From positions 3,755,442-3,819,441 of the forward strand of contig ML133454.1 of the NCBI GenBank assembly GCA_003864495.1: 64,000 nucleotides of DNA, given 5' to 3'. The position numbers and the translations under genes are program-made. The notes under the pieces are model-generated. The model had not been told where the DNA came from and ran no database searches. It saw nothing but the letters and a program-made list of their open reading frames with translations. Source of the DNA: Nemopilema nomurai. Its lineage: Eukaryota; Cnidaria; Scyphozoa; Rhizostomeae; Rhizostomatidae. Positions 3,901 to 60,500 of the stretch are shown here, piece by piece (positions within the stretch are counted from its first letter, which is position 1; each line of letters begins with the position of its first letter).

Positions 3901-6900
3901 AAGACCACACAGGTCGTAGCGTTTCCTGTTTTTGCTTGACTTCGAGAGGCAAGGCGAGAAGTCCAGACTTGGAAACAGAAGTTCCTTGCTCAACCCAAAG
4001 TTGCTGCAATCAAAAGACTCGATGACAATTGCTCATACTAACAAACTCAATGAGCATAAATGAGTATTGTCATGTGTTTCCTATCTATGCGGTGATCGGA
4101 ACACAATGACTTGATGACTGGATCACATTAAAGTTTAACTATTCATTGGTGAAAATCATTATTTTTAACTACCAGTTAAAATGACTAAATGTGATCTTCT
4201 ATTTGTTGGTTGATGACTTATTACTGAATGCCCAAAGCAACAGTTTGCGATTGCCCCTCCGCTCTGTCATCCCACAAGAACAGCAAATTAGACACAAGAT
4301 GAAACTATAGGAATGTCATGTTCTGCTGCTTTTCATTCCTCTCATTGTCTTCTCCTTCAAAGACAAAGGTCAGGAGGTTTTTCATTTACTTTTTTCATCT
4401 AAAGGGGCCTCTTTCTTTACAACCGACCAATAAAGCACACAGCGGCATTATGATCTCATACCTGTTGTTGGTCAATACCAGAAAGTCAGGGTACGAAATC
4501 ACAGTTCTTGTGCTTTCCATATTTCTCTCTACGCCACAGCGGTTGCATGCGACTTTGTTCTCCCTTTTGAAAAATTGACAGCTATTAGGGTCCTTGATCC
4601 CTTGCAATATTAGGAAAGCCATTTATTTTATTTTATTCTATCCAGAAGGGTCTAGCCAAAGAGCTAGTTGCCTAGCAACTTACCCGCGTCGGAAACCAGC
4701 GAGTCCTTCAGAAACCGTGTAGACTTTGGCAGGGACCCCCCTGGCAAAACTCTCGTGCTCCAACACTGTTGATTGCTGCAACAGGGAATCAAAATGTAAA
4801 AAACTTCTCTATTAACAAATTAAACATTACTACTTGGAAGTGTATTTTCTTTCTGTTAGATTTAATGGCTTCCAAAGGCTTGTTTTGGAGTTTTTTCTTT
4901 ATACCAAACATTGATTGTGTGTAAGTCTCAATGCTGTTGCAACAATCATTTAACGGTACCTTAAGCCTCATGACAGGTGGTATGAAGATGACAATCTTGC
5001 AATCTCTGTCCAATGAAAATTCTTTGCTTGATGTCACGTGACAGCCAGAACAGTTTTGCTCATTGCAAACAGCGCAGGCATTGTCCTAAATGGAAATGAG
5101 TCATTAATTTCCTCGAAAACACTTGAGGACTCAAAATTTTGCAGCAGAGAGATTCAAGAGCTCCAGGTTTAATCCCGCCCTCTTAGTCCCGCGTTTGCGC
5201 TGACGTGATATGCAGAGAATAATGTCACATGTCTTCTCCTATGCACTGTTTGTTCATTAGCTCATCTTCTTTCCTTCTATCTCCCGCTTTCCTAACAACA
5301 CTGAGGGGTCTCCTCTGCATGACCTGTCATTTCCAAACACTTACCAGTGACAGCTCTACGGTGTCTGGGCAAGGAACACACCCAAGATCTGACATAACCT
5401 TTACGATTTAGCCATATAAACCGAGTGACATATAAACCGCAGATTTCCTTATTCCTTTTGTGGGATCATATCTTTAACTCCTTTCGCATTATTCTGGTCA
5501 AAATTTGCTGTAACGACGTTTTCGTTAGCGGAAAGCCGAGAGGGTGGAGGTCGATATGTTCTTTGTAATATTATTTCTACGGTTGTACTGTCCAAAATCA
5601 ATGCGTATCGTTCGTATTAATGTTAAAATGCTTCATCAGTGATGCCTTGTCTAAAAATGCAGAAATGAAATAAGGCGAATCCTTGAGACCCCGAATAGTC
5701 AGCGTATCAGAATTTCATCAGAGTAGGAATTCTTCGTAGGTGGTTTTCATTTCTAATGGGGAATTTCATCAATCAAGTGAACCAACCGATATCCTTAGAA
5801 CAACGATGAAAATTCTTTTGCATTCATCTTCAGTTGCTCCAAGAAGGTACTTAGGAATTCTGGCGACGACGTCCCCCTCAATTGTCTTTCGAATTTGGAT
5901 GAAGGCCGGAGGGACTTGGTTTCTACCACAACGCTCCTAAATCATGGAAGAGGAAGGTCTTGTCATCGTAGCACTTCGTAACAAACAGTTCTAAACTGAA
6001 TTTCTTTAATGGCGTTTGACGAATACAGCGGCTTGCAACTTAGAGTTACTTAGGTCAGGTGGAATAATCAATGGGGGTAGGAAACTTGTGGGGGTGATTG
6101 TCTTGTAAGTAATCTTTGGTACCCTAGTTGCGTTGCTTTAGTCAGTTAAATCAGCACACGAAAGCTACTTTTGATTTTTTACACTCTTGTCAAATAACAA
6201 TCTAAATGCAAGGCCATTTATATTTTACTTTCTTGCCAGAGGGACAAGTACGCTACCGAGGTACAAAATCTTTGAGTGATACTCACAAATCCATCGTCTT
6301 GGAAAACAACAGGAACTGTTATTACTTCACCTCTCTTCGGGTTTACACTCTCCTTCCCATGACTCTTTCCTTCTTCCTCAGCAAAATCTATAGGAGCTGG
6401 TGTGCTGGTGAATGGATACGAGTCTCCATCGGCCTCGGAATCATGAGCGGTTCCTTTAGGCCGCTTGCGGATTATCTGAAATGCTTGCAGCTCACCATCC
6501 TCGCACATAGCTTCGAAAGCCGTTGTTGTTGCCCTCTAGAAACGATTCAAAGCTTATAAATTATTTTTCTCTTTATATGAATATAGATTTTAATCGTGCA
6601 GAGGACTGAAAATGGGGAACAATGTGCCACCAAAAAGCCTTCTATTCCAGTGCCTAGCCCTATATATGAAAATGGACCCTTACTTAGTGATAGTAGAGTA
6701 CTCTTTTTGCATTTTCGATCGCTATAAAATCTTTGAACTCAAGATTTTATAGCTTAAAAATCTTGGCTTTCACAGCAAGTGAATCGATACTAAAAATGGT
6801 GGATCTAGAACTCAAGTCTATTTGCCAAAAGCCTTCTCTAGGCACCTCCCACCGTTGTTAGGTACAGACGCACGAAGAACAAGAATACCTGCTATTCTAA

Positions 6901-19400: not shown

Positions 19401-22400
19401 TTAGAACAAGCTATGTTTGAACTGAGGAGAGCATATGTTTGTTCTCTACCTTGCTTTATTGGGTTTAATCTGAATATCTTCTATTATCTTGCCCTATATT
19501 CATTTTACAGAACACGAATGATAACTGTATGCTTGCTGTACTGATAGGGAGTCCCTCTATATAACTTCATGAATTACTATCTTCATTATCTGCTACTTTC
19601 TGTGGCTTTCATCATAACTGCATTTTGGTTTAGTGTCTGTTTGACTTTTTTATCTCTTCATTCATTTTAAAAGTAAGGCAAAGCATCAGCCTGTTAACTT
19701 AATAGTGAAAATGCTTCTAAGAAGAAGTGGCTTTGAAATGTTTTTGGAGGCTCCTAGTTTTTTCTTTAAGAAAACAATATTGGAAGGCATGACCTGGAAC
19801 GATATAGCAGAATTAGATGCCCCTTCTTTATCCAGAAACTTATTCATTTCGATTCAGACAATTTATTCCAGGGTTAAGATCAATTTTCTGAGCTTTCGGT
19901 CATTTCAGAACCATGCCCGATTGTTAGTGAATTCTTCATTTGTTAACAAAATCCGTGTCACGGATGTTAAGTTCACAAAGAGAGGCAGATAGCACTGTGT
20001 CTTTACCGGCATCCTTTCCCTTAAGTGCTGCGCTTGCAACTGCTTTGTTGCTTATGAATGCAGAATCATGTAGCTTTCCATCATTGTTCAAGAACTCGAG
20101 TTTGACCCAAAATGTCCCTTGTTGTGACCCTTTGGCAAAGTCGCCAAGGCCTTGTGTTGGAAACATCAAACGTCGCTTCGACGCTTTTTTAGTTTACCTG
20201 CTGTGTTTCAATTTGAAAGTGGGATGGTTTGTGTAGGGCTTTCGAAGAAGGTTTTAATCATGTGGGAGTAGTGAAGGGAAATAGGCAACCCACGTGTGTT
20301 GAGTCAACAAACATCTTCACAGTTTGCGAGCTCAGTAAAGTATGTGCCTTCCTCGGCATTTGCAATCTAGAGTGTTTGCGCAGTGGCTGGTCTGACCTGT
20401 TTTGAATAATCTTGATTCTTGAGGGTTATCGTCTTTGACCATGGTCGTTATGCTTCCACAAAACTTGAGCGATACTTTGCTATTTTGCAACTCGCGATTA
20501 AGATTTGTGGTGGTAGAAATCAGGCAGATGCATCTCCTGGTCAAGTTTGCCTGGAAATTCTCGACTTGTTTGCTTCTTTAAAGTGTTTGCTTCTTTATGG
20601 GCAATTTTCATGTCTGTAAAGTGTTTTCAGTGCGTTGCTTTTTGGGATTCTCCCTACCTTTCTCGTTGGAGCATATTTCAGAGTGCTTCGCTAAAGCACC
20701 CTGTCATTAGCTACCAGCTGAAGAAGTCAATGGCTCACCGGCACAAATGCTGGTATCAAGTGCGCACATGGGTTCTCCGGCACTAGATGTATCTACTTCG
20801 TTCCTGGAAAATGTCTTTTGCGGCTAGTGTAACCGCAATCTATAGATACACCCAAAGCCTTCATTTCTATTGACCCGTTCACTGGAAGCCTGTCTGGAGT
20901 TGTTTCCTCTTTGCGAAACCAGACGCTTGTTGATTGGCCTATCTTGTTAATAGCTTTCAATGGACGCTCTTAAACCGTGACGCGTCTGGTCCAGAGTCCT
21001 TTCGATGGAATCCGGCAATCTTGAATTGCATAACAGCACCACTCGCCTGCTAAGCTGTGTGGAGGAGAGCAAATTAGAGAAAGGCTGGCTGTGCGGGGGG
21101 GGGGGGGGGACAAATTAGTGAGAATCCTGCTGTGCTGCGTGGAGGAGGGCTAATTAGAGAAAGGCTGGCTGTGCTGTGTGGAGGTGGGCTGAGTGGGAAT
21201 ATAGAGGTGAAAAATGACGGAGCAGCTGGTTGTATAGTTTGAAGAAGAGAAAGCAGAAGTCGGATATTTTTAACTTGATAATGCTTCCGGCTTAATCTCA
21301 ACTTAGAAGAACACTGTAGTTGATTGCGCAAATATGGATAACAGTGTGAAATATTTCCCGGCTGAAATTAGCACTTCGGCAGTATACTATTTCCTGGACG
21401 AGTAGTAAATTTTTTTATGTGTTACCCTTAGGAAATAAGGTGCAATGACATTGTTGAAAGCTCACTCTTCTCCTTGTGTGGCTGTTGTAGAGATGACACT
21501 AGCTGGTTAACTGAAAGCACCTTTGTTTGCTCTGTTTCGGATTTCTAAACTTTTAAGATCTGTTTGAGATCTGTTTGAGATCTGTTTGAGATCTGTTTGA
21601 GATCTGTTTGAGATTTGTTTGAGATCTGTTTGAGGTCTGTTTGATGCTTAAAGTCGATGGCTATGATTCTTAAACTTGATGGCTATGATGCTTAAACTTG
21701 ATGGCTATGATTCTTAAACTTGATGGCTATGATTCTTAAACCTGATGGCTATGATTCTTAAACTTGATGGCTATGATTCTTAAACTGATGGCTATGATTC
21801 TTAAACTTGATGGCTATGATTCTTAAACTTGATGGCTATGATTCTTAAACTTGATGGCTATGATTCTTAAACTGATGGCTATGATTCTTAAACTTGATGG
21901 CTATGATTCTTAAACTTGATGGCTATGATTCTTAAACTTGATGGCTATGATTCTTAAACTTGATGGCTATGATTCTTAAACTTGATGGCTATGATTCTTA
22001 AACTGATGGCTATGATTCTTAAACTTGATGGCTATGATTCTTAAACTTGATGGCTATGATCTTAAACTTGATGGCTATGATCTTAAACTTGATGGCTATG
22101 ATTCTTAAACTTGATGGCTATGATTCTTAAACTTGATGGCTATGATTCTTAAACTTGATGGCTATGATTCTTAAACTTGATGGCTATGATTCTTAAACCT
22201 GATGGCTATGATTCTTAAACTTGATGGCTATGATCTTAAACTGATGGCTATGATTCTTAAACTTGATGGCTATGATGCTTAAACTTGATGGCTATGATTC
22301 TTAAACTTGATGGCTATGATTCTTAAACTTGATGGCTATGATTCTTAAACCTGATGGCTATGATTCTTAAACTTGATGGCTATGATCTTAAACTTGATGG

Positions 22401-25400
22401 CTATGATCTTAAACTTGATGGCTATGATTCTTAAACTTGATGGCTATGATTCTTAAACCTGATGGCTATGATTCTTAAACTTGAGGCTATGATCTTAAAC
22501 TTGATGGCTATGATTCTTAAACTGATGGCTATGATTCTTAAACTGATGGCTATGATTCTTAAACTGATGGCTATGATTCTTAAACTTGATGGCTATGATC
22601 TTAAACTTGATGGCTATGATTCTTAAACTTGATGGCTATGATTCTTAAACTTGATGGCTATGATTCTTAAACTTGATGGCTATGATTCTTAAACTTGATG
22701 GCTATGATGTCTGTTTTAGGTATCACATCGGGAACAAGACTGCAGTCTCCGCTGGACAACCGATTGCCCACCCGATACCAAGCCGTGCCCTTCGCCCCCC
22801 TGTTCTCGCAGGCACCGGCCATACCCACAACTCCATTTCAAAGCATTCCAGTATGCAATATTGGGAGCATGCACGCTATTCCCGGCCCGATCACTGTTTA
22901 CCCAACCAACCCCCATACTCAAGTACCGCCGACCTTACAACCAATGTTGGTTAAGCCCAGTTCAGTTGGAAAAAGCGGGGGGTTAGCGCAAGGACCGAAT
23001 GGAGTCATTCACACAATTTATCCAGCACCAGTATTCGGTGAGTAGCGCACAGCCTAAAGTTTGGTTTTCCTGTTTCAATGACCTTCTCATCGTCAATCGA
23101 CAGCTTTATTGCAGGGGGTGATTTTGCTTGTCACTCGAAGTTCTTAGGCTTTATAACACTGATGCAACACAACAACAACAATCACAACAACAACAATCAC
23201 AACAAAAACACCTGGCTCTCAGCGGCCTAGCCCTCGGCAGGTGATTCTTTTGAAAAACTGCTCTTGATTTTAGTCTTGGAGCTAACTGTAGCGTCGAGTT
23301 CCCTGGTCGATTAATTATCGTCTAGACCCCGTCTTTCAGATAAGACTGCCTACGGCCTAGTCAAAACCTTTCTTTGAAAATCCTTAAGTCTCGCAAAGCC
23401 TATATATAATTTTCCTAAGTACTTAAGATTGCCAAATGATTTTCACAAGCATTTTCAAATAATGATTTCCGCTCTAACGTTTGGGGTTTTTCTCAAAATT
23501 AAAGGTAAAAGACTTGAAATTGAAATTTGGTCAAGTTTGAAATTTAAAATTTTTGTGTCAAAGGCCGCTTCATCCTGAAACGTGGAGTTTCATAATTAGG
23601 CAGCTTGAAAAGGATACGCTTATGGTCCGACCGGGATTCAACTTGAAGCCCATTTAGGAGTCGTTAGGGTGGTGGGGTGCAATTGATAGCTTCATTTGTT
23701 GGCGGCGCTTTATTGGATCCATTTGGCCATATCCTGTTACAGGCAGATCGCCAATACTGGATCTCTTCCCTTCTTTTACTTTAGTTGACTGGAAGAATTC
23801 GACTTTGATGATATCGTCTTGATCGGGTACAATTCAGGGGATCTCTATTTGCTACCACCTCTATCTAGTCTTTGCGGTCCACATCTCTGAACCTAGAACA
23901 CAATGCAGTGTATCTGTTGACCATAAATTGCTGTTTGCCCAAGCGAATAAGGCTACTCTGGAGCGTTGTCCTAAGCTGCAATACAAATGGGATTGGTATG
24001 GCTTCATTACCAAAAGGACATTAAGAGGACGAAATAACTGCGAATCGATTCTAGAGCACGCTAAGCCAAAGTCCATTGTGTACTTTGTTTTGATCCCTTT
24101 GTTGCTAAGGGTAAGGAGGGGCAATAGATTGATTTTAGAGAATTTTCTGGCAAATCAATTATATGCCGTCCTAAGCTTTTTTGTGGGGATGTCCCGTTTT
24201 GGCTCGAGATCAACCCAACTGCCATCAGTGAAGGGGATTTTGACAGGGAATCTCCACGTCACGAGGGTTCTCACCAGTTAACATCACACCAGCGAATTTC
24301 CTCGTTTGTTAGCAAGGTTCTTGTGCTACTCGTTGTATTTAGCTAAAAAAATTATAGTCTTGTGCCCGTCCAATTTCTTAGTTTTATAATCATACTCGTA
24401 AAAGACGGCCATTCGAAGGCTAAACACATTACCCAAGACCTTGTCTGCATCTTTGTTGACTTTAATTAAAATTATTAAGAATTCTTATCCGAACATATTG
24501 TCGAGAAGTTGCTGCCAGCTAAGGTCTCGTCGATCTTTGTTGAATCCAGAGTAAGGTTTCTTATGATTTTTTCCTAGACTTTTGTTATTTTGTCAAGAGA
24601 CTGAAGCCCATGCTAAGCGTACCTCTTGATATTTCTGTATTGTTGTTCCAAATTGAGAAGAATCTTGATTGTCAGTCAGCCACGTGGTGAATCCGGTGAC
24701 GGGGCGTAATTCTGAGACCGTCTTGTGATCCGTTTGACCCTGTTGCATTGGTCCTCTGCCTCCTGCGCTTGTTTGGTTGGCCAAGAAGGTTTCTGGTTTT
24801 GCCACCCACCTTGTCTTACGTTATCGTCGCGCGAAGAACTTCTCAATCAGCCCTCCTTCTGATGGTTGATTGTTGCTATCAGAGTTTGTGAAGTAGCAAG
24901 TGATTGTGTGCAAAGCAGTGTTGCGAGAATCTCAATGTGGATGTAGCCATGTTTCCATTTGAAATAAAAGAATCAGTCTAATACACAGATCCCCAGCTAT
25001 CTTCTAGACACGTCCAATGTGTCTCATATGACAACTTTTCTTTTTTTACTTCCATTTGCACTTTCATTGGTTACTGGTTATTGGTTTCGACCATTCGATA
25101 TCATTCTGTATGTGCTAATTAAGCTTTGACTTATTTAATCTTTTTTATGTCTGTGTAAATCAATTCTGAATAGATGCAAGATACACAAAGTGAATACAAG
25201 CGATATCTGCTCAGGCTCGGCCCATTTGATGGCTGTTCCCCATCCGAAAAAGAGCCTCCAAAACTTTGCATCTGTTCCATCCTTGTTTAGGTTCCCCCAA
25301 AACTACCCGTCCTTCGTTGAGTTTCATTCACAAACCACTAACTGCTTGGTGTTTTGTTTTTCAGCAGCCAATCCAAGTCCGACGTCGTCTTCGGTGGTCA

Positions 25401-35473: not shown

Positions 35474-38400
35474 GTATTTTGTTTTTCTTGATTTTGCTTC
35501 AAATGTGCTAATGTCTCATGCAATTAGTTTTGACTGAATCAGTGGTACCCTTTTTACTTTATCAACATTATCAACACCATTGATTAAATGTGTGTGCGCA
35601 GAGAGAGTTTGGATATCTTTTTCTAGCCATATTTGGTATTTTCCTGGAACAGCCATTTGATGTTTTACAAGTTGAGAGTATGTTCTTGGTATAAAATATT
35701 CGCAAAAAGTTGACTTCTTTACTGTTGAGTGCATTTCCAACTTTGGAGCCCAGCAGACTTGACCCCTTGGGCCATAAACCTAACAGAGCTTGCATGTTAT
35801 GCAAAATGCAAAGAGAAAATTTTGGCAGACCATTTTGTGCCACTTTTTGAATCATTTTGCAAACTAGCTTATATTCCCAGACAGAACACATAATCAATAA
35901 ATTTCTCAAGACTTCATTGCTTGGGTGTCCATGTTTTTCAAGATCTAATGGAGAATGTGAAAGTTCTGGATTCTTATTTTTTGTGATAAACATAAACATA
36001 ATTGGCTCTCTTTAACATTTCCTTTTGGTTTCTTTAATTTCTGTTCTGTTGAAATAAGTTGTTTCTCTTGTCCTGACTCCTTTTGAAGTGACTTATTTTT
36101 TGGTGACTAGAAAGACTTACACTCGTTCAGGCTCCCAGGCCTCTAGGCCTATGGGCTCAAAGAATGTAGAGGCTTGGGCTCTTGGTTTCTAGATTCTGCA
36201 ATGGCTCAAGACTACTTAGCTCTAAAGTTAGGCCTTTTCATTTCTGCTTGTGCTCATGTTTCTTCTTTTTATTCTAGATGTAAGGCAGAATGTTCTCAAG
36301 GTTTGTATGAAATGCATTTGTTTTTGTTGTTTTTTCAGAAGTAAAAAATTCACATTTTATTTTCTTTATGGCACCGGTCAGAATCGCTTTCTTTGCTTCA
36401 GGTGAAAACGTGTGCGCGTTCTGTTTCGTATATTTTTCCTCGTTACAGTGCTCGTCAGTCAAGCCCAAATTGTATCAGAAATATCTGTTTGATTTTGATC
36501 CGGACCTTGGTGTATACATTAAGTGAAGCCCATACTGCCTGATGATACTCTCTTGCCCTCGAATAGAAGGTTAATTTTATTTTGTACAGCGAATGTTAAT
36601 ACGGCTAGCAGTCAAGCATAGGCTCATCTCCCTTACCAAGCTGAGGATATTTTCGTCGAATTACATTGCGGCCTCCCTCAGTACTTCGCTGAAGCCGCTG
36701 GAAGGGTGGAAGTTGCGTTGTGGGTTATGTATACACAGTAGACTCGTTTGTGATCTCTCACCCCAATCACCTTTCCAGATTCTGGATCGGTTCCCCAATG
36801 GCATTTGGCGTGGTTTCTTTTGCAACCAATACAAAGAAGAAACTGGAAGTACGCCTGACGACCTTATGAATTTTTTGAAGGTGGAAATGAAAGAAGTGGT
36901 TGAAGTGAAGAGGTAATTCCCTCTCAGGTTTTTTGTGTTATTTTCTCGTTTGGGGAAAACGAGATGATCTGAAAATAATACTCATCATAATCACTGCTTC
37001 AGCTCTATAGTTAGATGTCTGCTATGTATCGGGCCACCCCGAGAAAATTGTGGCATAGGCAAAGATGATTGTGCCACGATTGTTGTAATTGCTAAAGGCC
37101 CATGGGATTTGTCTAGTCCCAGTCCTCTCCTGTCAGCCACAGTGCGTATGATGCCTTCAAATTTTTCATTAAACATTGCACGGCCCCACGAGAGCCAGTG
37201 TGCGAGTTGGTGCATCGCGCGCAAAGCTAAGGATACCTAATTACAAATAGATTCTTCTAGCTCAATCAGTCAGCATTCTTCTATCATTCTTCTAGCTCAA
37301 TCAGTCAGCATTCTTCTATCATTCTTCTAGCTCAATCAGTCAGCATTCTTCTATCATTCTTCTAGCTCAATCAGTCAGCATTCTTCTATCATTCTTCTAG
37401 CTCAATCAGTCAGCATTCTTCTATCATTCTTCTAGCTCAATCAGTCAGCATTCTTCTATCATTCTTCTAGCTCAATCAGTCAGCATTCTTCTATCATTCT
37501 TCTAGCTCAATCAGTCAGCATTCTTCTATCATTCTTCTAGCTCAATCAGTCAGCATTCTTCTATCATTCTTCTAGCTCAATCAGTCAGCATTCTTCTATC
37601 ATTCTTCTAGCTCAATCAGTCAGCATTCTTCTATCATTCTTCTAGCTCAATCAGTCAGCATTCTTCTATCATTCTTCTAGCTCAATCAGTCAGCATTCTT
37701 CTATCATTCTTCTAGCTCAATCAGTCAGCATTCTTCTATCATTCTTCTAGCTCAATCAGTCAGCATTCTTCTGTCATTCTTCTAGCTCAATCAGTCAGCA
37801 TTCTTCTATCATTCTTCTAGCTCAATCAGTCAGCATTCTTCTATCATTCTTCTAGCTCAATCAGTCAGCATTCTTCTTCATTCTTCTAGCTCAATCAGTC
37901 AGCATTCTTCTATCATTCTTCTAGCTCAATCAGTCAGCATTCTTCTATCATTCTTCTAGCTCAATCAGTCAGCATTCTTCTATCATTCTTCTAGCTCAAT
38001 CAGTCAGCATTCTTCTATCATTCTTCTAGCTCAATCATTCAGCATTCTTCTATATTCTTCTAGCTCAATCAGTCAGCATTCTTCTATCATTTATCTAGCT
38101 CAATCAGTCAGCATTCTTCTATCATTCTTCTAGCTCAATCAGTCATTACGTGGAAGCAGTTTGTCATAACTTGGTCACGAGTTTTCATCAAGCCATCAAT
38201 CAGTTGACCAATCAGCATTTTTTACAGCAATCAACTCTTAGAACTAGTGTTGCCGCTTCCTCACTGGCCACCCTGGGGCCATACTGCTCTGGTCACCCTT
38301 CGTTGTTGTGTAATTGTGTTGCAAACTCACTTAACTGCTTCTTTTCTATGCAGCATGGTCGGCGACAACGAAATAATCTGCCTTCGAAAGGTAAAACGAG

Positions 38401-41400
38401 CCAAAGACATTATTTTCTTTTTTTTGTAAACTATACCTGTTATAGGTCATGTATTCTGTCATATCTGTTTTAGTAAATTTTGCAGCTGTCAGTTTGTTGG
38501 GAGAAGAAAAATGGTTGCGTCCTTAGAGCCAACAACACCCTTTTAGAGCACAATTGCTCCAAGTCGTGAAACATTGAACCAAGTACTAGATAAACTGTTA
38601 ATATTTTTTAAAGAGCATTTGCCACCCCTACTTGGAAATGAACTTTTTATTGGCATTAATTTTTCTTGTATCGCACCCTCGTTGGAAATTCTCGGCATAT
38701 CGTGATCAATGTAATTTTGGGTTTGCTAAATGTTACCCCATGTTTCTGTATTGCAACCTTTGTTTCTTGTCATCTCTCATATCAAGGATTTACTCCACTT
38801 AATCGATTCATCTTGCTCATTCGATGACCAACAAACAGCTCTCTCCGATCTATAACCCGGAAACTTTTATGTGTGGGCTGGCTTTAATTTAGCTGTAAAC
38901 CAAAACCATTTATACCTTCCAGCCAAAACTGCAGCAAGAAAAAGTGAAAGAGGAGAAGGGCAACGTGGAGGTGACGGTTCAAGGGGATACCAGAGGTATT
39001 GAAAAGCAGTTAATGTGACAGAAAGGCATTCTGCACCACTTTATCGTAACTCACATTTTTTTCCCTGTAGTTTGTAGAATGGGGCTTTAAAACGTCCTGT
39101 GGGAAGAATTCCTTTCTTTCGGGTATCCATTTTGAAGTATGCGATGCCTCGTGTTTCAGTCAAACCTGCAACTGTAGATCAACAGATATATATATATGTC
39201 CTATTATAAAGAACCACCCTATTTTTGATCCTTTTTCCAAAGCTTTAAACTGTACCTTTTTCTAAAGTTGATGTTGATGGTGCTGGTATTTGTACTGTCC
39301 ATCTGTAAATGCTGTCATATTGCCCAATCATATTGCCCATCATATTGCCCAATCGTATTGCCCAATCGTATTGCCCAATCGTATTGCCCAATCGTATTGC
39401 AATGTATGCCAATCGTATTGCCCAATCGTATTGCCCAATCGTATTGCCCAATCGTATTGCCCAATCGTATTGCCCAATCATATTGCCACGTAACCTTTCA
39501 AATGTTTTAGTCATAGCTGTTGCCAAAGCAACGCAAGGACACCAGACGAATGAGGCCATACCACAAGAAAAAGAACTTAACATTACACAACAAGAAGTCC
39601 CGAAAATTGGGTGAGCGCCTTTACGCGAACTGAATGCTTGTCAATTGCAATGCAACAAAAGTTTTATACTGTGGTCCATTGACACAGCAACTGCCAAGGT
39701 TTTTCAGTACAACGTCTTTTAGGTAACGCAAAATTCTGTTGGTAAGCTGATCACAAATTTGAAAATTGTATTCTTGTTCTTTCAGGGAAACCTTTTCTCT
39801 CTATGTTTGTCACGTGGATACAATTGATCGATTCTTTGCTCAAAGAAGTGATTCTGAAATCACGGATCTTTCAGAGAAAATCCAGTCACATTACGAAGTA
39901 TAGTTTTTACTAGTTTTTAATTGAGTAATTTTTTTAATTAATGTAAATCAATCAAAGTGGGAGTTAAACTTCAAAATGTTAGTCATTTTGTTGTAAGTGC
40001 CGCAATGTGTTCCAATATTATGTATTAAATATTATGTGTTTCATTGAAAGCTGTAAAATTTCTTTCTCTGACTCGGCCACACTACTTGAATTTTTCTCTA
40101 GGCAGTCCTCTTTTATTTTCAAAGCCTTTCACTGTTAGTTTTCATGACGAATTTTATTGCGTTGTCTTTTAGTCGAAAAGCAAGAGGTCAAAGTGGACGC
40201 CGAAAGTCGGAGGTGTATGCTGTGCCACTTACTTGGGACAGTGGTACAGGGCAAGGGTCATTTCGACAAAGACAACGGGACAGACGTGAGTGAATTTGGC
40301 TCTCATACAGCTTTAGAGACCCTGTTGCTAATGTCAACCGGTACTTTTTTGGTTTCATTGGTGGCCCTTTCCATTTGTCTGTTCTGTGCCACAGTTTTTT
40401 ACTTGTTATTCTTCAAGCAATGCTGAGAATTTGCGATTAATTAATGGAAAATCGATTTTAGAAATATCTATATATATCAAGCTTCAAGTCAAAGTTTGAT
40501 TATGGCCTTTATTAAGTAGGGGTTCCCGTAAATAGAGTCAAACCAAACCGACCTATACTTCAAATAAATTGGAAAAACATTTCCTGGATCATGGGTGCTA
40601 AAACATCTTTTTCAGGGCATCTGCAGCGACCAAACTAACATCTCAATCGGCCGGTCAGGTAAATCTTGTTGAAATGTTCACAACCTTTCAGTCTTGCTTG
40701 TTTTCAGAGCCACTGATTCAGCTTAAGAGATCGAAAGTCAAGAATGCTTGTATCTGAAGATCCTTCTTTAGAGTTATTCACTTTTATCATATAGTTTTGC
40801 AGAAAGCAGCGGTACACGATTGGATCTGTCCAGCGACATTGCCCCTAGAGTTTGTAACGGGGCCAGTTTTGGGGGGCTTTTAGATGGTTTGTAATAAGAA
40901 GGAATTACAAAATGAAGACAAAAGAAGAAAAATATAAAAATTCTAGAATTTCTTTCTCAAATTTAGAATACGCATGTTAATAACTGAGAACGAAAAATGC
41001 CTAAAGTGTTTGTTTGGCTTGAATATGGCTCAAGACCAGCTCTTAATATGTGCATTGGCAGAAGAGCACCAAACAACTTCACTTTAGGTGCATTTTCCTG
41101 TAGCTCATGTAGTGCATTTGCACTTGAGTCTCAGCTAGTGTCCTGCACAGTAAGACATAGTGAATACAGCTTGTGATGGCAATATTTCGATTCTGCCTTA
41201 AAGCAGACTTGGTATGTTTATGTGCTATTTGCAATTAGAGATGTTTGTCCTTCAAGGCATACACATTGAATACACAAAAATCATTGAACACATTTCTTTA
41301 GATAGAATTCAATATTTTCTATTTATGAATGCAGAAACTCTCCATGAGCAGAAAGGGCCAAGAATTATGAGAATAAAGTCAGTTGAATCGAATGGCCACA

Positions 41401-44400: not shown

Positions 44401-47400
44401 CTTTATTTGCGGTAATCCCGCTAATTCTGGAACACGTATTCTTATCCAACTTGACTCGCTTTCAGATGAAAAGCTCGAAATTGAAATTGGGTGTGTTTAT
44501 GCTGCGTTCTTCGAAGAGGCCTGGTACCGAGTGAGAGTGACTGAGCTCTGGGAAGACAATGCGGAGATTCATTTTGTTGATCGCGGCGACATTGGGAAGG
44601 CGCAGATTTCGTGCATCAAGAAATTGCCCGCACAGTTCAAAGTGTTGCCGTTGCAGGTATTCGAGTTTTGCCAAACAGTTCACCTGTTTTATATTGTATT
44701 ATATATTACTACATAATATTGTATTTTATTATATTGTATATTATTACATTATATTGTATATTATTACATTATATTGTATTTTATTATATTATTTGATGTT
44801 GTATTATATATTATGCTATATAAGTATATATTATGTTTATTTTGTTTTATTAATCATGTTATATTATATTTTATTATAATGTATTATAGTATACTGAATT
44901 GTATTTTATTATATTTTATTGTATTACATTATGTTGTATTATATGATATTTTATTATATCATATTTTATTATATCATATTACATTATATCAAATTACATT
45001 ACATCATATTACATTATATCAAATTACACATCATATTACATTACATCATATTACATTATATCATATTACATATATCATAATTCATATTACATTATATCAA
45101 ATTACATTACATCATATTACATTATATCATATGCTATATAATATAATATAATATAATATAATATGCTATTACATTGTATATTACATTATATAATTCCTCG
45201 ATAGGCAATCGAATTGACCCTGGCTGAGCTGCCGGATAGTGACAACCAGAAACACATCCAAGTTCTGTGTGACGCCATTTTGGGAAAAGAATGCGTTGCT
45301 ATCGTCTATGATCGGTAAAGTTTAACCACTTTGTTTTTATAGGGAGCCAATTAAAGCTCGCTGCATATTACTCGTTTACTTCTTTTGGTTTTGTTTAGAA
45401 TGGCACTTGCACAACTGAATATTCTCCTTTTGCTTTACAGAGAGGAAGACGTGACTGTGGTGGAATTGTTGGAAGGCAGCTCTGAGGATGGCATCAGCGT
45501 CAATGTGAAGATAGCAACTGAACTGAATTTGAACGACGAGGAGATCTTCAAACAGACCCTACCCCCGGTAAATTATTCAGTGCACGTGACTTGTGTTGTG
45601 TTTGTGACGTGTCTTGACTTGATCGATGGCATATCATATTAAAAGATTATATAAGAAATCATTGTCACTATACTCCATATAAACACGGCCTTTGGGCATT
45701 CTGCAAGGGTAGAGAAATATTCCTTATTATTGTTTTTAGATTGGTGATGTTATGGATGGATTTGTCTCCAACATTTCCGAGTCTGGCGTTTTCAATGTCT
45801 CTCTCAATGGTCCAGGCATCCAGCAGCTGGACACGCTGAACGAAGAACTTCAAAAATACTACGCAAAGGTAGTTGCTAATTGCTAATACTGAATGTCAAT
45901 TGCTGGCGGATATTTATTCTATAGAGAGATTGTATTTTTTCTTTTTAAAGGCTTCAGGCTTCAATCCTTCCACGGCCAAAAAATATTGTGCAATTAAGTT
46001 TTTTTCTAAGAAATTTCCTACTTAAAGCGCAATTGAGGTGAGAGAATTCAGAATGATTATTTTGAATTCACAGAAACCAATTTTTACTTAGCATTTATTC
46101 GCCAAAAGTATTCTTTTTTGTTGCACGTGAAGGTTCTTTTTGGAAGTATGAAAATGCCAATTTTGTGTTAGCATGCGAACGGATATTTCACATTGTGCTG
46201 CACTGCACTGAGAAATGCTCTTTTCTGGCTTTCAGTAATGTATTATCTTGCCTGAATTATTCCACCAAATGACCTGGGAATGAGTTATTCGCTCTGTTTC
46301 TTGAGACCGGTGCAAGATGTGAAGGAGCTCTCCCCTGTAGTTGGCTCCTTCGTCCGTTGTGCTTTTATAGGGCATGAGTTCTCAATTTGTGACTCTTGGC
46401 TCAATTTTTCTGCAGGGATTGAAAGCAGCGGACTTCGTGAAGAGCCCAGAGACGGACCAGATCGTCTGCGTCAAACACAAAGAGGATGGGGTCTGGTGCA
46501 GAGCGTCCATAACATGCATCATGGCCCTTGAAAGAAGGTATTCTCGTCGTAACCAAGTAACAAGCTAACTTAGTCGATCGATGGCTTTATTTTCACTCGA
46601 TTGCCTTCTTAGAGTGTTAGACAGAAAGTGGATCAAAGCTGGTTAGTGCAGCTCATTTTGTTGTCATTCTGTAGAGGATGTGTTTTTGCGACTTGATTGT
46701 GGTTGTGGTCGACCTTAGTGTACGCATCAGCGGCAACACTAGCTCTATGTTTATGTCGTTCTAGGCTGAGGTCGAGTTTATGTCGTTCTAGGCTGAGGTC
46801 GAGTTTATGTCGTTCTAGGCTGAGGTCGAGTTTATGTCGTTCTAGGCTGAGGTCGAGTTTATGTCGTTCTAGGCTGAGGTCGAGTTTATGTCGTTCTAGG
46901 CTGAGGTCGAGTTTATGTCGTTCTAGGCTGAGGTCGAGTTTATGTCGTTCTAGGCTGAGGTCGAGTTTATGTCGTTCTAGGCTGAGGTCGAGTTTATTGA
47001 CTACGGAACCAGAAGCGTGATCAGCATCAGGGCGCTGCGGAAGATTCCGGAGACGCTGGAGGAGCTGCGAACCCACCCCCCTCAGGTAACGTCAAGACTA
47101 GCACGACTCTTTTCATGCCGTCGAACCTTCAGAGTCGGTGCCTTGAGCAGTTAGAGCGGGCTGGGATGGTGCTGCTAGCGTGATTTGCTAGTCGTTGATC
47201 GTCTTGTTCTTCCTTTTTATAAACGCCTTTAGCATGGACAAGTAGTCGAAATGGTAGTCAGATGCTTGACGAAAATTAATGCGACTTCCGATTCTGTGCT
47301 ATACTCGATGATGAAGACTAAGTCACTGAAATATCATCTAGAAGTTCGCTGTTTGTCCTTACGATGTTGTGTGACAAAAAAGACTAGTGGCTATCATGCT

Positions 47401-50400
47401 CAAAATTGTTTTTCAAACATTTCTTGGCTTAAATATCAATTGCCCCATTGATTCCGTTTTTGATCATTATCATATTTCAGACCGTTAGATGCCAACTTGC
47501 GGACTGCCCTGAAGAAGCTCACGTGAGTTGCGTTGCTTTTTAGAATGCTCGCTTGCTGGAGTAATCATTCTCGTACAGTCACCTATCGCGAGTGACGGTC
47601 AACTATTTGTTAAACGTAACCAGAAGATGAAAAATGACGTAAACTTCTTTTGAAATATTTGATGATCATCAGGTGTCTTAGTTTATGTCTGCAATGTGAC
47701 AATGTCATGAGAATTTTGTTCCTCACATCTTTTTCCGTTTTGTTATTTGATGAACCCGTCATTGGCGATGTTGGGTTCTGCATACACACTGTGTACTCCC
47801 ATTTCTTTTCAATTCGTGCAATTCTTCCGATAAATGGATGTTCTTACTGAGGCTTTTTCTCTTGCAAGGGCCTGTGGAAGGATGGATTGGCCGCGCGATT
47901 GCTTGCCGCTTGGAAGACGAAAACTGTCGTTATCAAGGTAACGGTTATTTTTCGTTGGATTGAAATATCTTGTTTCATTTTTTCACATGCATACTAAACG
48001 CCATTGATGAGAAGAAAGCTGATTTGATAAACCTATTCAGGTAGCCAAGCTGTTGATGTTTGAGAACTAAAGTTCTTGTTTTTGGTCGGGTCGACAGCGA
48101 TATTTATCGTGTTTGGCTGTTTTTTAAAAATCCTTTGGTCGATAAGGCAAAGCTGCTCTAATTTTGCATGCAAGTATAAAGGGCTTAAAATAGAAAAGTA
48201 AAAATAAATAAAAAGAAACAAAATAAAATAGAATAAAACAAGTTTCTTTTCAACAATACGTCAATTGTTCCAACATGCTCTAAACGTTTTTGGTCGTCAG
48301 CTTCGAAAATATTTTCCTCCATCAGCTTCGGGTGGCTTTGTTCGTTTCTCAATCCGTTTGCATAAGAGCATGCTCTACTTTGCTATATCATTCGTATCGA
48401 CTTGACTTTTTTGTATGGCAAGACTTGAATAGCGTTGCTCAACCGTTGGTTTTCAGCCTGTTAAAGAAGCCGATGATCATTCTTTGGCCTCGGTCCAACT
48501 TCTGCTATCTGACCCTATTGACGCTGCCAAGTTCACATCCATTGCTGAAGATGTTCGCGAGATTTGTTCGTCTTTAAGGTTTAAATGAAACCAATTTATT
48601 TGCTTGTATAATTCCTATTGATTCAACCGAATTGAAATTGATACAGAAACTGTTTTAGCATCTTCTTATTTTTGGAATTGATTCTAGAAAACCGCACTTA
48701 GAGTCTTCTTAACTCGCCGGCACCGCTGAAGTCATTTTGCTCTCTTTTGGAAGAATAGCTTTGACAACATCTATCGATATGCTCGATGTGTTATATTTGT
48801 TTCCATGCAGGAATGTGCACCCACCCCCTGGTGATAGGGATGACAAACAGACACAGCCGTCCGTCGAAACGAGTCCTCCAGCCCCCGTAGAGGCTGGCTT
48901 CGTGTCTGCGCAGCACCAAGATAATGGCAAGTCCGAGAATCCGCCAATTTCGAGTCAAATGTCCCATTCAAGTTCTGCCAGTGACACTCATCAAGATAGA
49001 CGGGGGTTCACTATTCGAAACGCTGTCGTTCCTTGCTTAGAGATCGAGGAATCTTTTGTTGCTGTTTATGTTTCCAACGTGCAAAGCCCATCGAACTTTC
49101 ACGTGAGCGAATTTCATTCTGTACTCCACCTGTAACGCAATCGCTATTTCGAAGTTTCTGGATTCGAGGTTGTTCTATTGGTCACCTCTCTGGCAACAGT
49201 GCATTTGAATGACGTGTTAATAAGGGGTCAGGTTTAATACTTGAATGACATCAAATGATGTTGCTGATGTTGTTGTTGTTAATATTTTCGTGCACCGTTG
49301 CTCGATGCCCTTTAGGTCACCTGCTAAGGTGCATGCATGTGTACATTTCTTTTGGGCTCTCTAGAACCCTCGCTCTTGATCCGTGCTGTTAAAGGATTCC
49401 CTCAAACGTGGTTTTACGTTTATCATTAAATTTCAGTTTTTGCTCCACAAAAATTTGTCGATATTCGCTGACATGATGGAAGAGCTGCAGAAGCATTACA
49501 AGGTATGTTCTCTTTGGGTCCTCACTAGGTATGTTCTTTTCCGATCCTTACAAAGTATGTTCTCTTCGGGTCCTTACTAGGTATGTTCTCTTTGGGTCCT
49601 TACAAGGTATGTTCTCTTTGGGTCCTTACTAGGTATGTTCTTTTCCGATCCTTACACGGTATGTTCTCTTTGGGTCCTTACACAAGGTATGTTCTCTTCC
49701 GATCCTTACTAGGTATGTTCTCTTCGGGTCCTTACACAAGGTATGTTCTCTTCCGATCCTTACTAGGTATGTTCTCTTCGGGTCCTTACACAAGGTATGT
49801 TCTCTTCCGATCCTTACTAGGTATGTTCTCTTCGGGTCCTTACTAGGTATGTTCTCTTCGGGTCCTTACACAAGGTATGTTCTCTTCCGATCCTTACTAG
49901 GTATGTTCTCTTCGGGTCCTTACTAGGTATGTTCTCTTCGGGTCCTTACTAGGTATGTTCTCTTCGGGTCCTTACACAAGGTATGTTCTCTTCCGATCCT
50001 TACTAGGTATGTTCTCTTCGGGTCCTTACACAAGGTATGTTCTCTTCCGATCCTTACTAGGTATGTTCTCTTCGGGTCCTTACTAGGTATGTTCTCTTCG
50101 GGTCCTTACTAGGTATGTTCTCTTCGGGTCCTTACACAAGGTATGTTCTCTTCCGATCCTTACTAGGTATGTTCTCTTCGGGTCCTTACTAGGTATGTTC
50201 TCTTCGGGTCCTTACTAGGTATGTTCTCTTCGGGTCCTTACTAGGTATGTTCTCTTTGGGTCCTTACAAAGTATGTTCTCTTCGGGTCCTTACACAAGGT
50301 ATGTTCTCTTCCGATCCTTACTAGGTATGTTCTCTTCGGGTCCTTACTAGGTATGTTCTCTTTGGGTCCTTACAAAGTATGTTCTCTTCGGGTCCTTACA

Positions 50401-53400
50401 CAAGGTATGTTCTCTTCCGATCCTTACTAGGTATGTTCTCTTTGGGTCCTCACTAGGTATGTTCTCTTTGGGTCCTTACAAGGTATGTTCTCTTCGGGTC
50501 CTTACAAGGTATGTTCTCTTCGGGTCCTTACAAGGTATGTTCTCTTCGGGTCCTTACTAGGTATGTTCTCTTTGGGTCCTTACAAAGTATGTTCTCTTCG
50601 GGTCCTTAACACAAGGTATGTTCTCTTCCGATCCTTACTAGGTATGTTCTCTTTGGGTCCTCACTAGGTATGTTCTCTTTGGGTCCTTACAAGGTATGTT
50701 CTCTTCGGGTCCTTACAAAGGTATGTTCTCTTCGGTCCTTACAAGGTATGTTCTCTTCGGGTCCTTACACAAGGTATGTTCTCTTCCGATCCTTACTAGG
50801 TATGTTCTCTTCGGGTCCTTACTAGGTATGTTCTCTTTGGGTCCTTACAAAGTATGTTCTCTTCGGGTCCTTACACAAGGTATGTTCTCTTCCGATCCTT
50901 ACTAGGTATGTTCTTTTGGGTCCTCACTAGGTATCTTCTCTTTGGGTCCTTACAAGGTATGTTCTCTTCGGGTCCTTACAAGGTATGTTCTCTTCGGGTC
51001 CTTACAAGGTATGTTCTCTTCGGGTCCTTACTAGGTATGTTCTCTTTGGGTCCTTACAAAGTATGTTCTCTTCGGGTCCTTACACAAGGTATGTTCTCTT
51101 CCGATCCTTACTAGGTATGTTCTCTTTGGGTCCTCACTAGGTATGTTCTCTTTGGGTCCTTACAAGGTATGTTCTCTTCGGGTCCTTACAAAGTATGTTC
51201 TCTTCGGGTCCTTACAAGGTATGTTCTCTTCGGGTCCTTACACAAGGTATGTTCTCTTCCGATCCTTACTAGGTATGTTCTCTTTGGGTCCTCACTAGGT
51301 ATGTTCTCTTTGGGTCCTTACTAGGTATGTTCTCTTCGGGTCCTTACAAGGTATGTTCTTTTCCGATCCTTACACGGTATGTTCTCTTTGGGTCCTTACA
51401 AGGTATGTTCTCTTCCAATCCTTACTAGGTATGTTCTCTTTGGGTCCTCACTAGGTATGTTCTCTTTGGGTCCTTACAAGGTATGTTCTCTTCGGGTCCT
51501 TACAAGGTATGTTCTCTTCGGGTCCTTACAAGGTATGTTCTCTTCGGGTCCTTACTAGGTATGTTCTCTTTGGGTCCTTACAAAGTATGTTCTCTTCGGG
51601 TCCTTACAAAGTATGTTCTCTTTGGGTCCTTACAAGGTATGTTCTCTTCGGGTCCTCACTAGGTATGTTCTCTTTGGGTCCTTACAAGGTATGTTCTCTT
51701 TGGGTCCTCGCTAGGTATGTTCTTTCGATCCTTACAAATATGTTCTCTTCGGGTCCTTACAAGTATGTTCTCTTCGGGTCCTTACAAGGTATGTTCTCTT
51801 CGGGTCCTTACAAGGTATGTTCTCTTCGGTCCTTACTAGGTATGTTCTCTTTGGGTCCTTACAAGGTATGTTCTCTTCGGGTCCTTACTAGGTATGTTCT
51901 TTTCCGATCCTTACACGGTATGTTCTCTTTGGGTCCTTACAAGGTATGTTCTCTTCCAATCCTTACTAGGTATGTTCTCTTTGGGTCCTCACTAGGTATG
52001 TTCTCTTTGGGTCCTTACAAGGTATGTTCTCTTCGGGCCTTACAAGGTATGTTCTCTTCCTGGTCCTTACAAGGTATGTTCTCTTTGGGTCCTTACTAGG
52101 TATGTTCTCTTTGGGTCCTTACAAGGTATGTTCTCTTCGGGTCCTTACAAGGTATGTTCTCTTCGGGTCCTTACAAGGTATGTTCTCTTCGGGTCCTTAC
52201 TAGGTATGTTCTCTTCGGGTCCTTACAAAGTATGTTCTCTTTGGGTCCTTACGTATGTTCTCTTTGGTCCTTACAAATATGTTCTCTTCGGGTCCTTACA
52301 AGTATGTTCTCTTCGGGTCCTTACAAGGTATGTTCTCTTCGGGTCCTTACAAGGTATGTTCTCTTCGGGTCCTTACAAGGTATGTTCTCTTCGGGTCCTT
52401 ACAAGGTATGTTCTCTTCGGGTCCTTACAAGGTATGTTCCTCTTCGGGTCCTTACAGGTATGTTCTCTTCGGGTCCTTACTGTGTTCTCTTCGGGTCCTT
52501 ACAAGGTATGTTTTCTCTTCGGGTCCTTAATAGGTATGTTCTCTTCGGGTCTTTACAAGGTATGTTCTCTTTGGGTCCTTACAAGGTATGTTCTCTTTGG
52601 GTCCTTAATAGGTATGTTCTCTTCGGGTCCCTTCGGCTGAAGAGAGAATGCCATTTGTTTTCTATGGAGAGGTCGCAGTTAGCAGTCCTTGATTATGTGA
52701 TCCTTTTGAACCAAAACCACAAAAACGTCGCGCGCATGACAGCTGTAGCCTCAATGCCAAAGTTATTTCTATTACTCATTATAAATATTCATGATTTTTC
52801 ATTCGATCGTCCGGCTCCATTCAAAATGTAAGTGTCTAACAACAGCTTGCTCAGGCTGAATGTTTAAGTTGATTGGATTTTGTTTGGACGTACAGCAACC
52901 TTGGGCCTTCCCCCAACTAGAAGGGCTTGGATCGCATTGAATCGCTGGGTATTAAACTCTGCTAGTTATGATAGTCAAACTTGCACGTGACTGGTCTTGT
53001 CCTCGTGGTTTCGTGCTAGCCATTGAAAGAGAGGCTACTCATGTGTCACTTGTCAATCATTTGTTGGGTACTGAGCTACAGTTCGTGAAAACGCTTCTGA
53101 GTCGGTTTTGATTTCATCGCGTATCATAAAGTCAACAGGTGTAAATAGAAGTTTTTCAATAGTAGTAGGTATGTTTCTCGATTGACCCCCAACGTCTTCC
53201 CTGCTTCCACAACTGCCTTCGTTCTCAATAGCACTCAGAAGACGCATTCGACGACTACTGCGAAGGAGACGTTTGCGCAGTTCTGACAGAAGAAGATGAA
53301 ACGTGGTACAGAGGAATCATTCGCTCAATTGACGAAATCGAGGTAGCATATTTCATTCACCTGAGTTTTTATTTTTCTATACGAGGCAAAGTGGAAATTG

Positions 53401-57533: not shown

Positions 57534-60500
57534 TCACTTGTCCAACGATTTTTTAAGCTGTTCGTTTTCTTCCGTTATTGACCTCCACAACTGGTCGACC
57601 TCGTTTTCAAATTGACTAGAAAGAAAGAATATCTGGTAAAAGGAAAGAATCAAGGAATGCGAGGCGCTTCTAACTGGCTCTTTCATATCAACGAAATATG
57701 AAGAGCATGGATTGCAAGTCCTTGGAACAAATCGCATTCAAAAAGGGCATTCAAATAGGATACTTCAATGTTTTCAACAAGAAGTTATTACCAGTGCAGT
57801 GGGCCACGCTGAAGGCGTAAAAACATTTCCTCCATAGAAAGCTCTCGGCTATAAACTCTGTCGCATCCGTTCTCCGCGACACTCTCCACACAGTGTGATC
57901 TACAGAATTGGTTTCACTAGGAGCACCCGAGCAATAGCGATGATGCGGTGCGCTAGAAAAGCACCAAATAAAAGCGTTTTGAGAGAGAAAGAAGCCTCAC
58001 ACACTGATTACCTGTGACCTGTTTGCGCAACATCCAACATGTTTTTTCTGCTTGCAATTATTTGCCTCAAATTATCAATTTCTTGATCATAATTGTTCTT
58101 TATGTTCAGAATCTCATTATCCTTCTCCTTAATTCTAAAAAGCAAAAATATGAAAAGTAAATCGTTGACGTGCATTTAAGAGAGCCGACTGCATGATATT
58201 TAGCAAGCAAAGCTAAGAGGAAAACTTGAGTCTGGTCATTTGAAGTAGATGTAAGAAACCAGCTATCAGACATACCTTTCGTAAACTTCGACTGTTTTCC
58301 TTTTTGCCAGATCTTTGTATTTCTGGAAAACAAGCATATTAGTTATTCAGAAAGTGCTTCCTTTGTACGTCGGGTGTGGTCGAACAGAGTTACATAAGAT
58401 TGTAACGTCGATGCAAAATGAGGACCAGGGTAGATGTTTTGCTGTGATTTGGTTAAGCAAGCAAATATCCGGCATCATCACTGCTGCAAGAGGTGTTTGG
58501 CTGCTTTCTGCTTCTTGCACTAAAGGCTTCTGCACATCATTATGGCCATGTACCACGGATTGCTACTACCAAAATTATATATTTAATGAAGACCAGTCAC
58601 AAATAGTCAAATGAAAATGGCGCCATCCTTCTGCTATCGTATTCGTTCTCTGGACATCAAGAAATCGTCAATTCGTTTGGGACGCGTTCCCACAGGAATC
58701 AACGACTACCTCGAGAAATGCAGATGCAATACAATGCTAGATACCAATACAATGCTAGATACCAATACAATGATGCTGGATGACAATACAATGCTAGATA
58801 CCAATACAATGCTAGATACCAATACAATGCTAGATACCAATACAATGATGCTGGATGACAATACAATGCTAGATACCAATACAATGCTAGATACCAATAC
58901 AATGCTAGATACCAATACAATGATGCTGGATGACAATACAATGCTAGATACCAATACAATGCTAGATGCAGATTCAACGAAAACAGGCCTTGCCTCTTAG
59001 TGCGCCCTAGAGTGAAACATTTTTATTCACCCACCTCTACTTCTTTCCTAAGATCTTCCAGTCTCCTTTCGTTGGCCATTCTTTGCTTAGTGGTTAATAT
59101 AGTTTCATTGTTTTGAGATTCGACCTAGAATTCGAGAGGTTACTATGTCATATGCATAAATCTCAGTATCAAATTTAAGAGACGAAATGAGTACAGACCA
59201 CGGATCGTTTGGATATAGGCAACAGGATGTATACAACAGGATATAGGCAACAGTCCCCGCGCATGCGTTGTTGGGGTGCTTGCCTGTATTCAGTGACCTA
59301 AATTCGAAATGAAAAGCCGTACCAACTTGGCAAAGACGTCTCTTTCCTTTGAGTTTTCTTCAGCCTAAAAGGTAAAGCTTTTCAGATGAAGCGCTTCTGG
59401 TCGAGTAGTATAAATGGAGATCATGAAACACCAGAGAAAATCTTACCAAAGCTCAAAAGGAGAAGGCACTCTTATCAAGCAAAAATTTCAAAAAGAAATA
59501 AGGTAAGAACCAGTCGCAGACACTTTTAGAAATCACCTACAGTAATCATTTCTTGAGTAGCATGAATAAAACTGGTATGTTTGATAAATCAAAGTTGATA
59601 ATCAGAAGCACAGCAAACGTGTCGAATGATATTAGAAAGAACTATATGCACTAAACAGGAGCGTAAGAAAATTGGATCATACTGACACAAATGCTGAACA
59701 TGAAAGGAAGAAAGGATCTATTGTGTTGCCAGAAATTGGAAAAAAGAAAAGTGGATATAGACTTTCAAATGCAGGTCTTTACAAGAGGAAATTGGCGTAC
59801 CACTAAGAGGACTTGCTTCAGGGTTTCCGTTGCAATCATTTCTTTCTCACTCGCGGTGCCAACTTTTCTGTCTAAGACAACTAGCTTCCTTTCAGCTTTT
59901 CTGAAAAGCAAAAGCAAATAACTTTTTGAAGCTGTACTCAGAACCCAGTATGACCAAGAAAAAGAACAAAATTCCCAGAAGTGGATAACGACAATTGATA
60001 CACAAGGCCGCTTGTAAACAAGGGAATGAAATACGAGCCAAGTCACTACTAGCTAGGAAAGATTCTTGTAAAAGACAACCTCAATGACTTCGTTAGCAGT
60101 CCCACTTCCATTTGAAGTCGTGACACCATCGAATTTGCATCTAGAATAAATGAAATAATGGAGAAACGCTCCACACTATTTTGAAACAAAAAGATAATGG
60201 AGGGAAATCAAAGTCCGTAGGTCTCTAGAAAGCACCAAGGTCTGAAGCCAATGGCATCTATGTGGCGTAAAATACATCGTTTTTTCCAGCAATGTCAAAG
60301 GAAAACTAGTATTTGCTGTTGAAGGCAGTTTATAAAAAGAGATGACAAGAAAAAGGTTTCAAATTACACGCAGAAGTGGTAAGGAAAAGGCTTCAAATTA
60401 CCACACTGGTGTAGAACTGCAAACATGACAAGACATCATAAACTGTCGGGTGCAAAGATATAAATGCCATCTTACCAGTGAGTCGGATGGCCAGCTCCTG

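Follow-up and report, generated by a model that had tools for sequence, protein, structure and literature searches.

Results

A tandem array of splice donors in a Tudor gene

The window analysed here, a 64,000-nt stretch of the genome of the jellyfish Nemopilema nomurai (assembly GCA_003864495.1, contig ML133454.1, positions 3,755,442 to 3,819,441, forward strand), contains a gene with Tudor domains in which a minisatellite begins within the last bases of a coding exon and extends far into the following intron. Each unit repeats the end of the exon together with the start of the intron, including the 5' splice site. The features of this region, in window coordinates and with a slash marking splice boundaries, are as follows:

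48811-49102, + strand: coding exon that precedes the one at 49437-49502
49437-49502, + strand: coding exon of 66 nt (FLLHKNLSIFADMMEELQKHYK), its final 7 nt forming the exonic portion of unit 1
49496-52630, + strand: 26-bp minisatellite of 120 units with the consensus TTACAAGGTATGTTCTCTTCGGGTCC, composed of 7 nt of exon end and 19 nt of intron start
49503-49508, + strand: first, presumed true, 5' splice site AAG/GTATGT (frame test; 6.54 bits)
49503-53231, + strand: presumed intron of 3,729 nt that holds the donor array (join tested by frame and domain match)
49509-52617, + strand: 115 further GTATGT donors (pattern counts in the donor array)
53163-53179, + strand: unit-like piece TAGTAGGTATGTTTCTC standing alone some 530 bp beyond the array, spotted by eye and possibly due to chance
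53232-53342, + strand: next coding exon (HSEDAFDDYCEGDVCAVLTEEDETWYRGIIRSIDEIE), which continues the TUDOR match

Tandem Repeats Finder (TRF) describes the donor array with a period of 26, 120.0 copies and 88% matches, and wrap-around alignment gives the same count of 120 units. The signals inside it comprise 116 GTATGT, 103 GGTATGT and 100 AGGTATGT; over the whole array the GTATGT hexamer lies in the context TAGGTATGT 47 times, in AAGGTATGT 52 times (the first donor included) and in AAAGTATGT 10 times, and most units also contain the CU-rich motif TTCTCTT. Scored with a consensus matrix of our own and a cut-off of 5 bits, the array holds 53 donor-like 9-mers (16.8/kb) vs 3 in the 18.2 kb of the remaining gene, and 200 mononucleotide shuffles of the array yielded a mean of 0.34 and a maximum of 3 at the same threshold. 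The first donor has the top score among the 20 presumed donors of our rough gene model, a set that comes mostly from a home-made, over-predicting gene finder, which placed many false exons in the array and whose donors are mostly unproven. In an alignment of the units the donor hexamer does not stand out as conserved: GTATGT shows at least as much variation as the adjacent positions of the unit, hence we see no sign of selection for the extra donors. No Rfam families were found within 33000-56000.

The 66-nt exon ends in TTACAAG/GTATGT and joins 53232-53342 in phase 0. The peptide assembled from 48811-49102, 49437-49502 and 53232-53342 yields a continuous match to the Pfam TUDOR profile (positions 3-76, 51.6 bits), whose score falls to 24.2 bits when translation reads through into the array and to 24.4 bits when the 66-nt exon is omitted. 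Because the join from the first donor rebuilds the Tudor domain, the exon end at 49502, as judged from this match and the frame, is well supported. A frame test on all 116 GTATGT donors of the array showed that the first alone is open into 53232, while the other 115 lead to a stop in the joined exons; on the strength of the reading frame, the first donor is presumed to be the one used. Unit 1 must carry AAG at this position, since the TAG variant common in other units would be an in-frame stop there.

Near its start the gene encodes an OST-HTH/LOTUS domain (26.8 bits, cut-off 23.8), and this domain together with the Tudor domains marks, as we assume, a gene of the TDRD5/TDRD7 kind. Orthologue searches returned only distant matches (two and one), and the alignment to protein P0123 over the donor join is weak (33% over 72 aa in one Tudor domain and 30% over 84 aa in another). 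The original prediction, made from the DNA letters, had called the gene TDRD7-like, a label with which the two domain types agree and whose implication of orthology goes beyond what these matches settle. What it had said of the array itself is borne out: about 120 tandem copies stand at the exon end, the unit consists of the last 7 nt of the exon and the first 19 nt of the intron (array alignment and Tudor join), the first member is the donor presumed to be true (1 of 116 keeps the frame), and near-identical donors follow it (about 100 AG/GTATGT).

A mirror array at an acceptor of the same gene

Upstream of the donor array, the same gene contains a second boundary repeat:

46749-46997, + strand: boundary minisatellite of 9.2 copies of a 27-bp unit, composed of 16 nt of intron end and 11 nt of exon start
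46981-47085, + strand: exon after the last acceptor (AEVEFIDYG...)

The units are tandem 3' splice sites of the form TTCTAG/GCTGAGGTCGA, with 100% matches between units according to TRF. The last of the nine acceptors is open, and the Tudor match that spans its join reaches 67.8 bits; P0123 can also be aligned through it (34% over 119 aa). The upstream acceptors yield AEVEFMSF followed by an in-frame TAG, i.e. 8 codons, a result that stems from translation of the last three of the nine acceptors and thus of two of the eight upstream ones, the units being alike. In both arrays, as far as frames and domain matches tell, the usable site is the one that adjoins the exon.

A second copy of the locus and turnover of the array

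A second copy of the locus resides on another contig, labelled C37 in our numbering, where ordered BLAST pieces span the window from 36198 to 64000. The flanks of the donor array are 99.1% identical between the copies over 800 bases and 99.6% over 502, and between them C37 has a donor array of 129 units (C37:249715-253052) with 117 GTATGT donors vs 116 in the window; the acceptor array counts 19.2 copies vs 9.2. Elsewhere on C37, at a distance of 750 kb, a probe found a 98% partner on contig C92, and probes at two other genes were single-copy. The C37 copy is probably the other haplotype, with haplotypes kept separately in parts of the assembly, and might instead be a recent duplication.

Together the two donor arrays comprise 58 unit types, 30 in the window and 44 in C37, with 16 common to both; a type with an inserted AC occurs 13 times in the window array and never in that of C37. 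Over much of the array the order of units is not common to both copies. When blocks of 260 nt from the window array were compared with the C37 array, those starting at units 1-31 matched at 91.9-94.2%, those of the middle at up to 96.5% and those of the far part at 94.2-99.6%, the far blocks that start at units 73, 79, 91 and 109 reaching 98.1-99.6%. In the reverse comparison, blocks starting at units 1-49 of the C37 array matched at 89.6-92.7% and those from unit 97 onward at 96.2-99.6%. As the blocks on the exon side match the other array least, most change appears to have taken place at the end of the array that touches the exon.

Other boundary arrays in the genome

A triple-donor pattern sought throughout the genome (212.9 Mb, 226 contigs) produced 160 + 144 matches (304) vs 50 + 66 (116) for the reversed control, and a version with AAGG fixed produced 15 + 21 vs 1 + 9. 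The AAGG matches represent seven places, or six loci if those on C37 and C88 are counted as one. Three of these six loci lie at exon ends; those on C36 and C86 have no exon recognisable by eye, and the one on C62 was left out of the reading. For the general pattern, the places inspected came from the matches listed, which number at least 100 and lie on C1 and the first part of C22: of three places in C1, one array lies about 100 nt beyond a presumed exon, one has no exon by eye and the third was left out. Donor arrays were found in two other genes:

C22:760601-761500, - strand: donor array of a myosin VI gene, whose repeated segment is the last 28 nt of an IQ-region exon followed by GTGAGT, with five CCAAG/GTGAGT
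C77:961801-962700, - strand: donor array of a VPS11-like RING gene, with twelve AATC/GTATGT copies in a 73-bp higher-order repeat

The myosin VI join gives a match to Pfam MYO6_lever (41.6 bits) and also to PDB 3gn4, and the join in the RING gene gives a full RING match. Pep5 is among the weak PDB matches of the latter; the name VPS11, which goes beyond that match, is our assumption. This array was met by luck, because the motif that the pattern matched is on the other strand from the gene. The further donor-like arrays among the places read by eye are intronic or have no visible exon, and none of nine TRF arrays from a 200-kb sample, likewise read by eye, has a recognisable exon boundary. Boundary arrays thus look like a minority of many minisatellites, and we make no claim of a preference for exon ends.

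Several other repeats and genes came to light. A 4.5-kb array of TAGGTGAGT/TAGGTAAGT units (C1:3895813-3900309, - strand) is flanked on neither side by an exon recognisable by eye, and a 34-bp repeat of 40 copies in extract L016 (2374-3742), with units containing AGAGGTAACT, shows by eye no open + strand exon upstream. Within the window, minisatellites at 21642-22708 and 39318-39487 end 11 and 23 nt before the presumed exon starts 22720 and 39511, respectively; a 35-bp repeat at 37251-38145 (25.6 copies, 26.6 in the C37 copy, consensus with TTCTTCTAG) lies about 200 bp before a presumed exon, and an 18/75-bp repeat at 58727-58967 is open in several frames. The neighbouring gene at about 22.7-27.8 kb encodes a SAM-domain-like stretch, which by eye we take to be Smaug-like. 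Extract L029 contains an RMC1-like gene (3557-5563, - strand) with a single uninterrupted frame of 669 codons. For an RMC1-like protein of this genome the best matches have 89 to 66% identity; identities to named species are 59% for Hydractinia, 54% for Hydra and likewise for Branchiostoma belcheri, 53-55% for several stony corals and 52% for Liolophura, the last perhaps a contaminant. These values support a cnidarian, probably medusozoan, host and speak against amphioxus, whereas a COX1 search gave no match.

Discussion

The original prediction named no standard feature class for such an array, but there is one: minisatellites at exon-intron boundaries are known from amphioxus and from human paralogs. 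In amphioxus, tandem repeats over intron/exon boundaries, termed mirages, are described in Adh3, troponin C (TnC) and the globin genes BflGb6 and BflGb9, and in imperfect form in PGBD5, with AG/GT signals in many units and copy numbers that vary between haplotypes (PMC3087553, PMC3902484); reverse transcription-PCR suggests that they are spliced normally (PMC3087553). The jellyfish donor array shares the main traits of mirages: its units hold exon and intron sequence of one boundary and carry AG/GT signals, and its length and sequence differ between haplotype-like copies (120 vs 129 units, with 9 vs 19 in the acceptor array, taking C37 as an allele). It differs in its cnidarian host, in the presence of donor and acceptor arrays in one gene and in that about half of the units read TAG/GT; it comprises 120-129 copies over 3.1-3.3 kb, the copy numbers of amphioxus Adh3 and TnC lying outside this comparison. 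The Adh3 mirage is reportedly unstable in somatic tissue as well.

Human genes in segmental duplications are described as possessing variable, often polymorphic internal tandem repeats at exon-intron boundaries, with 27 intron modifications (PMC2812944); these repeats average four copies of a 30-bp unit and are associated with recent duplicates, novel introns and alternative splicing (PMC2812944). The jellyfish array is likewise a variable minisatellite at an exon-intron boundary, but has more than 100 copies, belongs to a gene that is not known as a recent duplicate and shows no new intron. Hypervariable minisatellites such as human MS32 exhibit polar turnover, and here too the presumed alleles diverge more at one end of the array than at the other, although in our case the variable end is the presumed working splice site. 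Recursive splice sites, or ratchet points, occur singly, are conserved and have good acceptors; some jellyfish units resemble them in that a pyrimidine-rich stretch is followed by AG and immediately by GTATGT, whereas the jellyfish sites are many and variable, and about half of them lack an AG of good quality. Intron gain by tandem duplication of AGGT segments (PMC4974935; discussed in PMC3087553) similarly creates extra donor and acceptor signals by duplication over a splice signal, but we see no new intron here, and the jellyfish copies remain inside an intron. Among the literature matches listed, none reports a cnidarian boundary minisatellite by its title or the start of its abstract, which is weak evidence of absence.

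The interpretation we favour, with a probability of roughly 0.8, is that the array is a hypervariable minisatellite spanning a donor, i.e. a mirage, tolerated because the exon-adjacent site wins. Of the three readings that the original prediction had offered, the neutral one, in which the first donor wins, fits best, and we found no evidence for U1 saturation or for an effect on polyadenylation. The boundary segment would have been multiplied by unequal exchange or slippage, with selection holding unit 1 to its coding form (AAG) and the rest of the array being tolerated. Splicing may take the exon-adjacent site through exon definition of the 66-nt exon, perhaps aided by the CU-rich TTCTCTT, and faulty transcripts with early stops would be degraded. 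In all likelihood, no function of the array itself is under selection. In a reporter study, CU-rich pieces placed between competing donors are described as suppressing the intron-proximal donor (PMC1877881).

Several points weigh against this interpretation. The choice of donor is deduced from the frame and not from RNA, and the array donors are the strongest of our rough gene model, so that a low cost of harbouring them is not obvious. Where strong 5' splice sites are duplicated, the intron-proximal (last) one is often preferred, and on this basis the choice should go the other way. The polarity is based on a single pair of arrays, in which the middle reaches 96.5% and three far blocks, from units 85, 97 and 103, match the other array at only 94.2-95.4%. 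Finally, the boundary repeats of human paralogs are reported to generate alternative splicing (PMC2812944).

The array could be a costly burden, with internal donors often used, their products removed by nonsense-mediated decay and the output of the gene falling with copy number. That 115 of the 116 donors lead to a stop in the joined exons agrees with this idea, which we nevertheless regard as unlikely, given that both copies retain their arrays, of 120 and 129 units, and that amphioxus mirages are reported not to interfere with splicing (PMC3087553). It is quite unlikely that the array corrects itself recursively, each unit serving as both a 3' splice site and a donor and a second step of splicing repairing a wrong choice. 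A unit could be acceptor and donor at once because many contain a pyrimidine-rich stretch followed by CCTTACTAG/GTATGT; if a downstream donor were used first, those retained units that end in TTACTAG would adjoin the next exon and could be spliced out later, leaving the correct mRNA. A wrong choice would then often be reducible to the same mRNA, and therefore arrays could grow at little cost, which would account for the tolerance of so many strong donors. TAG/GTATGT indeed occurs at 47 places among the 120 units of the window and at 63 among the 129 of C37, and in the common units the AG is preceded by TTCTCTT and by CTTAC or CTCAC. However, the pyrimidine tract is interrupted by CGGG or TGGG in most units, AAG, a poor acceptor, stands at 52 places in the window array and 39 in that of C37, the units of the VPS11-like array end in AATC, without AG, and the alternation of A and T at the position before AG resembles ordinary polymorphism of the array.

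A third possibility, that the many donors collect U1 snRNP (small nuclear ribonucleoprotein) and thereby boost transcription or prevent premature cleavage and polyadenylation, we judge very improbable. It would suit the 100 AG/GTATGT sites in 3.1 kb, and it also predicts the similar number of donors in the two copies (116 and 117). The intron would offer little to protect, though: a search for two polyadenylation signals found 0 AATAAA and 1 ATTAAA in it, vs 10 and 12 in the whole gene, so that the intronic premature signals on which U1 telescripting would act are nearly absent as far as these two hexamers go. Moreover, the donor hexamer is kept no better than its neighbours in the unit, and the unit order differs between the copies over much of the array; U1 saturation is not required to explain the array. 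An assembly artefact or false expansion is the least credible of the alternatives. Tandem arrays are error-prone in assemblies in general, but here two contigs have related yet different arrays between 99% flanks, and because C37 has the locus with its own 129-unit array, an artefact is unlikely. The published genome of Nemopilema nomurai, 213 Mb in 255 scaffolds, is described as built from PacBio as well as Illumina reads (PMC6441219), which also speaks against it.

A donor-spanning minisatellite tolerated at an exon end adds a cnidarian case to the boundary-spanning minisatellites, of which the literature matches listed contain only the mirages of lancelets and the boundary repeats of humans. 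It constitutes a natural experiment, in which a single intron contains over 100 strong and nearly identical 5' splice sites, of which the first alone is compatible with the protein. The same gene provides the mirror image, tandem acceptors of which the last alone is usable, and the sites chosen in RNA would show whether the exon or the intron decides. If wrong choices were indeed repaired by a second step of splicing, mirages would offer a natural test of spliceosome choice among over 100 nearly identical sites.

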